From contig CABYXR010000006.1 of NCBI GenBank assembly GCA_902522955.1, forward strand, positions 1 through 37,555: DNA of 37,555 nucleotides. The letters run 5' to 3'. The notes beneath the pieces are model-generated. The model saw only the letters and a program-made list of their open reading frames with translations. It was not told the origin of the DNA and searched no databases. This stretch comes from an uncultured Pelagibacteraceae bacterium (GTDB taxonomy: Bacteria > Pseudomonadota > Alphaproteobacteria > Pelagibacterales > Pelagibacteraceae). This document shows, one piece after another, positions 18,220 to 20,979 of the stretch; positions within the stretch are counted from its first letter, which is position 1; each line of letters starts with the position of its first letter. A program made the translations under genes and the position numbers.

Positions 18220-18885
18220 ATGCCAAAAAAGACAAAAATCAAAAAAAGCAAAAAAAAGAAACCAATAATTCTTAAATCTAAAAGTAAACAAGCTGCAAAG
18301 ATAAATGAAAAAAAACCTCTTTCATCAAGTTTGGAGGTAAAACTAGAAATAAAAAAAATTAAAAAACAACCTACTGAAAAACGAGCGTATAATCTCAAAG
18401 ATTTTGTAGTTTATCCAAAGCATGGGGTGGGAAAAATAACTGCCATTGAAAAAGCTAAAATTGGAGAAATAGATATACAATTTTATAAAATTTTTATTGA
18501 AAAGGAAAAACTCACTTTAACCGTTCCTATAAACCAACAATCAAAACTTCGATCAATTTCATCTATAAATCAAATAAATAAATGTATTTCTATTTTAAAA
18601 ACTAAGCCAAAAATAAAAAGAACAATGTGGAGTAGACGTGCTCAGGAGTATGATCAAAAAATCAATTCGGGCAAGATTTATGAATTGGCTGAAGTGGTAA
18701 AAGATCTAAACAAAAATACAGATATTATTGCTGATCAATCTTATTCTGAAAGACAGCTTTTTGAAAAAGCCTATGAGAGATTAAAATCTGAATTTGAAGC
18801 TGTTTTAAAAGTCAGTCCTGAAGATGTCCAAAAAAAAATGGATAAAGCTTTAGGTCGTACACAAATTTTGGAGAACGCTGAATAA
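18220..18885 (+). CDS. carD: CarD-family transcription regulator with Lys-rich N-terminal extension
   Basis: CarD binds RNA polymerase beta through its N-terminal Tudor-like domain and stabilises open promoter complexes. Here that domain starts at YNLKDFVVYPKHGVGKI (about residue 57), followed by the helical DNA-binding part (MWSRRAQEYDQKINSG to the C-terminus). The protein is 221 aa. The first 54 residues are an added, disordered-looking tail containing 21 lysines (KKSKKKKP and similar), which could add nonspecific nucleic-acid binding. There is no internal Met between residue 1 and the domain, so the extension is probably real. It is last in the helicase cluster and ends in a shared terminator. 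Confidence 0.9.
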   Translation: MPKKTKIKKSKKKKPIILKSKSKQAAKINEKKPLSSSLEVKLEIKKIKKQPTEKRAYNLKDFVVYPKHGVGKITAIEKAKIGEIDIQFYKIFIEKEKLTLTVPINQQSKLRSISSINQINKCISILKTKPKIKRTMWSRRAQEYDQKINSGKIYELAEVVKDLNKNTDIIADQSYSERQLFEKAYERLKSEFEAVLKVSPEDVQKKMDKALGRTQILENAE

Positions 18886-18886
18886 A

Positions 18887-18923
18887 AAACGCCCTTTTCA
18901 AAAAATATTTAAAAAGGGCGTTT
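18887..18923. terminator. Bidirectional intrinsic terminator between carD and the poly-basic peptide gene
   Basis: A perfect 12-bp inverted repeat: AAACGCCCTTTT (18887-18898) pairs with AAAAGGGCGTTT (18912-18923). It starts just past the carD stop. Read on the minus strand it is followed by six T, on the plus strand by only three, so it should work best for the minus-strand gene while also ending carD. Confidence 0.85.
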
Positions 18924-18935
18924 ATAAAAAGGAAA

Positions 18936-19007
18936 CTATCTTCTTCTTCTTCTTCTTCTAGCTTTCTTTTTAGCTTTTTTAGCTTTTTTTCTTCTACGTT
19001 TAGCCAT
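18936..19007 (-). CDS. 23-residue Lys/Arg micro-protein
   Basis: Starts MAKRRRKKAKKAKKKA and ends in seven arginines. Eighteen of 23 residues are Lys or Arg and the rest are Ala plus the Met. AAGGGAG sits about six bases before the ATG, and the terminator at 18887-18923 follows the stop directly, so this looks like a complete transcription unit. A TTGACA-like -35 lies at 19081-19086 (minus), but no good -10 is paired with it. The composition resembles histone-H1-like or ribosome-associated basic tails; binding to nucleic acid is the obvious inference. The seven AGA codons form a trinucleotide run. Confidence 0.65.
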   Translation of the reverse strand: MAKRRRKKAKKAKKKARRRRRRR

Positions 19008-19214
19008 CTTATTCTCCCTTGTTTTAAACAAATCTTTATGATTCGTTTCTTAAGTTAAACATTAATTAATTTACAATTCATGTCAAATGTAAAATGTTTT
19101 GTAATTTTTGAATTTAAATTAAATATTTTATCTAATTATAATTTTTTTATAAAATTAAAAAAAGTTAGTAATATCAATGTTTTTTTAAGCAAAATTTAAT
19201 TAAATTTTAAAGTT

Positions 19215-20892: not shown

Positions 20893-20979
20893 TGGTGGGC
20901 GAAGAGAGACTCGAACTCTCAAGGTATTGCTACCACCGGATTTTGAGTCCGGCGCGTCTACCAGTTCCACCATTCGCCC
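20893..20979 (-). tRNA. tRNA-Leu (anticodon CAA)
   Basis: Full cloverleaf on the minus strand, 87 nt including encoded CCA. Seven-base acceptor GGGCGAA/TTCGCCC, anticodon stem CCGGA/TCCGG with loop CTCAAAA giving anticodon CAA, a long variable arm (GGTA/TACC) typical of leucine tRNAs, and T arm GAGAG-TTCGAGT-CTCTC. It lies 15 bases after the BASS transporter stop and four bases before the fadD start, all on the same strand, so it may be cut from a longer precursor. Confidence 0.97.

Follow-up and report, generated by a model that had tools for sequence, protein, structure and literature searches.

Is a 23-codon open reading frame (ORF) that encodes almost nothing but lysine, arginine and alanine a gene and, if so, what might such a peptide do in a SAR11 cell? 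Few cells in the ocean are as numerous as SAR11 bacteria, which also serve as models of genome streamlining. The question is raised by a stretch of 37,555 nt of Pelagibacteraceae DNA (the window), in which the candidate gene, referred to here as the micro-gene, occupies 18936..19007 on the minus strand; its assignment is based on translation, synteny in relatives and an excess of third-position changes. Translation of 19007→18936 gives MAKRRRKKAKKAKKKARRRRRRR, bearing out the original prediction of a 23-residue protein with 78 % Lys/Arg: 8 Lys and 10 Arg account for 18 of the 23 residues, the first half is Lys-rich, proline is absent and the C-terminus consists of seven arginines. This is the sole ATG-initiated ORF of at least 15 aa with at least 60 % Lys/Arg in the 37,555-nt window, and no ORF of at least 18 aa with at least 75 % Lys/Arg was obtained in 300 Markov-shuffled windows (orders 1, 3 and 5; 100 each).

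The predicted Shine-Dalgarno sequence and terminator are both present around the ORF. The ribosome-binding site, AAGGGAG (CTCCCTT on the plus strand), is located at 19014..19020 (-), 6 nt 5' of the ATG, and its GGGAG is free of changes across the 68 leaders of the window's genus. Some relatives have in-frame upstream TTG 'starts', which were disregarded because the ribosome-binding site lies immediately 5' of the ATG. Between the micro-gene and its neighbour, a G+C-rich hairpin (ACGCCCTTTTc..tAAAAAGGGCGT; 18888..18922) forms a bidirectional intrinsic terminator for the micro-gene on the minus strand and carD on the plus strand, recognized by its sequence and by the conservation of its stem (CGCCC/GGGCG), which is maintained throughout the window's genus. 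The convergent neighbour, at 18220..18885 (+), is carD, as had been supposed, with the Pfam domains CarD_TRCF_RID and CarD_C above cut-off and a Lys-rich N-terminal extension. This extension is H1-tail-like and of variable length in SAR11 (about 55 aa in the window, longer in genus g3); two other alphaproteobacterial CarD proteins that were examined lack a long extension of this type. Upstream of the micro-gene, beyond an acyl-CoA ligase gene, lies a tRNA gene (20896-20979, -), the sole Rfam match in the window.

The micro-gene is not confined to the window. The matches of a search with carD belonged to Pelagibacteraceae, HIMB058 being in the window's genus, which places the window in SAR11, and all 80 loci sampled from other SAR11 records carry the micro-gene beside carD; 74 of them contain complete ORFs in the same place and orientation, and the other six are contig ends at which the 3' part of the ORF is still visible. 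A further sample of Pelagibacterales, taken across the order and including two families, contained the ORF in every locus for which the correct flank was read, although some genomes occur in both samples and the locus counts do not represent independent species. Two genomes missed by the exact leader pattern also carry the micro-gene. Among SAR11 loci with a readable correct flank, there was no genuine absence: the apparent absences (L014, L051, L056, L067, L072, L073, L130, L134, G015 and G028) proved to be contig ends, wrong flanks or leaders that the exact pattern had not caught, and the gene was shown in all these cases (for L130, via its genome, G109) except L134, for which the flank is missing. 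A basic micro-gene facing carD was found in none of 28 alphaproteobacterial loci outside Pelagibacterales, and a profile search found no paralogues in the genome. Judged from its order-wide synteny beside carD, the micro-gene is a genuine SAR11 gene.

According to the original prediction, coding would be supported if relatives had an ORF downstream of carD that is conserved but varies in its codons, and such an ORF was found across the loci of both the carD search and the order-wide sample. In the window's genus, there are 37 distinct ORF sequences of 21–25 codons, all in frame, and no frameshifted or stop-broken copies were seen in relatives. The out-of-frame change in length of the AGA run that had been named as a refutation does not occur among these 37 sequences; in any case, an AGA run could slip by threes. 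The A-runs of the ORF could slip by a single base, and the 37 sequences contain no such slips. Parsimony on a carD tree gives 32 changes at the first codon position, 63 at the second and 117 at the third, these counts being approximate because the alignment is uncertain in the gapped repeat part. The genus ORFs make use of K, R, A, T, G and M only; Lys/Arg exchange (AAA/AGA) is frequent, and glutamate (GAA), an equally simple first-position change from AAA, does not occur once in the 37 distinct ORFs. There are no acidic, aromatic or large hydrophobic residues in these peptides besides Met1, and their net charge is +17 to +20. Given that lengths remain in frame, that changes favour third positions and that charge is maintained, the micro-ORF is, from these comparisons, coding. 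The greater conservation of the leader than of the ORF could suggest that what is conserved is a non-coding RNA, or the terminator region of carD, and that the ORF is incidental. This is very improbable in view of the exclusively in-frame lengths, the third-position excess, the charge-preserving K/R exchanges and the maintenance of the ribosome-binding site, and no Rfam family matches at the micro-gene (the whole window yielded only the one tRNA); the argument was rejected on the basis of this coding constraint in relatives.

The leader is the strongest signature of the family and, in the sequences compared, is conserved more than the product. Its -35 promoter element, TTGACA (19081..19086, -), is followed after 16–17 nt by a probable -10 region, TAATGTT (19058..19064, -), deduced from the spacing in the conserved leader, and then by a hairpin, AAACGAATC-ATAAA-GATTTGTTT (19026..19048, -), identified by folding and conservation and containing an invariant CGAATC (a GANTC site). 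In each of the 111 units whose upstream sequence is long enough, TTGAC is separated by 38–41 nt from the CGAATC that opens the hairpin. The 68 genus leaders have no changes in TTGACA or in the arms AACGAATC and GATTTGTTT; the loop is variable. The hairpin of the window folds with -7.5 kcal/mol (z -5.1), and leaders fold far better than shuffled sequences do, with z values of -2.4 to -6.1. In genera g2, g4 and g5, the 3' arm differs, its pairing partner is shifted, and two pairs are compensated on both sides, whereas the arms are nearly invariant in g1 and g3, in which the exchanges that keep pairing are one-sided only, chiefly G-C/G-U. Geometry thus gives the predicted hairpin good support, and covariation modest support; a reading of CGAATC as a DNA site is a possible alternative. 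The genome contains no further exact copy of the dyad, which is thus private to the micro-gene, and the idea of a regulon was abandoned. TTGAC and CGAATC at the right spacing occur once in genome G000 and mostly once, adjoining carD, in f1 genomes, the bare pattern not being specific outside Pelagibacterales. Most f2 genomes have a second conserved TTGAC...ATTACGAATC match (TTGACTATATATAGTAGTTCAGGTCTCATAGTTATATTACGAATC; G002:C2:86606-86650 and equivalents), away from carD. With a standard promoter, the mRNA would start a few nucleotides before the hairpin. Stem-loops within a few nucleotides of the transcript start protect mRNA, and the hairpin probably protects the 5' end of this mRNA and keeps the transcript abundant. 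The expression signals were judged to be strong because TTGACA, the leader hairpin, AAGGGAG and the terminator are all present.

The product itself varies considerably. Orthologues were recognized by their place beside carD and by their leader, as low-complexity residues alone cannot prove homology; they range from 21 to 99 aa and are usually longer outside the window's genus. The versions from this genus (21–25 aa, 78–82 % Lys/Arg) are among the shortest and most basic. Lengths are 21–35 aa in genus g3 (MPKKRKKAAKKTKKKAKKKAKKRRRK type), 31–38 aa in g2 and g4, 34–50 aa in g5 (MAKKRKKAAKKKAPAKKKKVAKKRKPAAKKK...) and 40–99 aa in family f2 (MEELKVIFAKARKKAKKKAAPKKKRKAAKRKPAKKK...), in which the Lys/Arg share is lowest, at 53–61 %. 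Net charge is +17 to +53 across seven groups, though sequence and length vary. The position of f2 outside f1 suggests that the direction of change was one of shortening. The longer orthologues are plainly histone-H1-tail-like, with AKKKAPAKK and KKAAPKKKRKAAKRKPAKKK repeats; they are Lys/Ala/Pro-rich low-complexity sequences with almost no acidic or aromatic residues, as H1 tails are, whereas the copy in the window consists of Lys, Arg and Ala without Pro. The H1-like gene of f2 with 76–99 aa (e.g. L116 720-981) contains a second long open frame as well (79 aa, Lys/Arg/Leu-rich), which is probably a by-product of the repeat codons.

The H1-type repeats of the longer relatives and the lack of a fixed length make a free-standing H1-tail-like polycation that coats or compacts DNA the likeliest role, and this can be put forward with moderate confidence. 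It agrees with the original prediction of a free-standing polybasic tail possibly coating DNA, RNA or ribosomes, the resemblance of the longer relatives to histone H1 tails favouring nucleic-acid coating, with the partner deduced from sequence. The peptide would be disordered and, with 17–20 positive charges in 21–25 residues, would bind the phosphates of nucleic acids without sequence specificity, most likely acting on chromosomal DNA, as the C-terminal tails of H1 do. It would work beside the HU/IHF-family proteins of the same genomes; two or three copies of this family were found in 38/38 genomes, which would make the micro-protein an extra component. The absence, from the window's own version, of the Pro of H1-type repeats counts against an H1 tail, and rRNA or tRNA would likewise be bound by such a polycation, the sequence not separating DNA from RNA. 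The main rival is, accordingly, a micro-protein associated with ribosomes or RNA, either as an extra small ribosomal protein on rRNA (like bTHX, bS22 and bL37) or as a general RNA shield. The size, the charge and the N-terminal MAKRR resemble those of small ribosomal proteins, and the strong expression signals would also fit, but a length that varies between 21 and 99 aa, with expansion of repeats, is not what is usually seen in a ribosomal protein that occupies a fixed pocket, there are no aromatic positions, no PDB chain matches, ribosomal proteins included, and the longer orthologues resemble H1 tails; this role is possible, but rather unlikely. The run of identical codons directly 5' of the terminator could also be that of an amino-acid attenuation leader peptide, in which the seven Arg codons would sense charged tRNA-Arg. 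This is extremely improbable, as gene order refutes it: there is no co-directional gene after the terminator, the next gene being carD, which faces the micro-gene on the opposite strand. The Arg run is, moreover, not constant (RRRKRR, RRKKRRR), and orthologues reach 99 aa.

An addition to the H1-tail explanation, rather than an alternative protein function, is that methylation by CcrM, together with GcrA, might gate expression of the micro-protein via the GAATC at the transcript start, which would tie synthesis of the peptide to a fixed point in the replication cycle. The site, a GANTC, is present in 111/111 leaders, no more than about ten nucleotides into the inferred transcript, and GcrA and a CcrM-type methylase with a RAMA domain are both encoded in the genome. 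Two GANTC sites precede the ATG of ccrM itself, at 28 and 12 nt (CGATTC and GAATCA; L166 1365-1428, G000:C1), reminiscent of the self-regulating ccrM leader reportedly described in Caulobacter. GANTC is scarce in the window (1-37555), with 57 sites observed versus 97 expected under a first-order Markov model, a depletion of about 1.7-fold. GANTC methylation in Pelagibacter (PMC9516812) and a CcrM homologue in SAR11 (PMC3973325) have both been published. However, every one of the 111 leaders has A as its N, which is not free as in a CcrM/GcrA promoter, although CcrM accepts any N in GANTC, so that the constraint is not on GANTC alone but on CGAATC or the hairpin. The finding that nearly all GANTC sites are fully methylated in Pelagibacter culture (PMC9516812) also counts against such gating, which is possible but unproven and, on balance, quite unlikely. 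The combined scheme, in which all SAR11 would package their nucleoids with an extra layer next to HU/IHF, consisting of a bare H1-type tail of some 23 residues whose production is timed by CcrM/GcrA methylation at the start of its own transcript, is decidedly improbable; if true, it would constitute a bacterial parallel to the replication-coupled supply of histones.

Whatever its partner, the micro-gene is very likely to be important, because it is found in every checkable member of two families, in a constant place and with a leader conserved beyond its product. Its length is under the usual limits for genes, and tryptic proteomics would lose its peptides. Stripped down to little more than charge, such an H1-like protein raises the questions of the minimum length of a functional chromatin tail and of whether its target is DNA or RNA.

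Searches of Pfam and NCBIfam with the 23-mer and longer orthologues gave no families at E<=1, no curated model of the H1, Hc1/Hc2 or AlgP type among them; as HMMER discounts low-complexity queries, this carries little weight in either direction. The 23-mer matched no PDB chain at E<=10, ribosomal chains included, and an 85-aa orthologue gave only a chance-level PDB match (E 0.52); a class-wide search with this orthologue was empty and uninformative, the query having no match even in its own order. No paper on such a SAR11 protein was found in the open-access literature. Several known systems are nevertheless comparable. Protamines share the Arg runs, extreme charge density and tiny size of the micro-protein, with no demonstrated relation; the SAR11 protein is bacterial, occurs alongside HU and has a Lys-rich first half. 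The small ribosomal proteins bTHX, bS22 and bL37 (about 20–40 residues, polybasic) are similar in size and basicity, but the SAR11 protein has no PDB sequence match, is not of fixed length and is repeat-like. Chlamydial Hc1/Hc2 and Bordetella BpH1 are small basic H1-like nucleoid proteins of bacteria; in a comparison made via Pfam only, the SAR11 protein has no Pfam match, and it is much shorter, with no further domain in the window's genus. Close parallels in composition are provided by Pseudomonas, in which AlgP is a KPAA-repeat protein of 352 aa with a helical N-terminal domain and a DNA-binding H1-like tail (PMC9239181). The C-terminal tails of AlgP and PhaF are, like the SAR11 protein, Lys/Ala(/Pro)-rich, predicted to be disordered and strongly cationic (PMC9239181), and AlgP-like composition (KKAAPKK/KKAPAKK) is seen in the longer SAR11 orthologues of family f2 and genus g5; the SAR11 protein differs from AlgP in being the tail alone, at 21–99 aa, with far more Arg and, in the window's genus, no Pro. 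H1-like bacterial tails, such as that of AlgP, are, thus, an already known kind (PMC9239181), and what appears to be new, relative to the databases and papers searched, is a free-standing tail of about 23 residues, conserved throughout an order and provided with its own structured leader.
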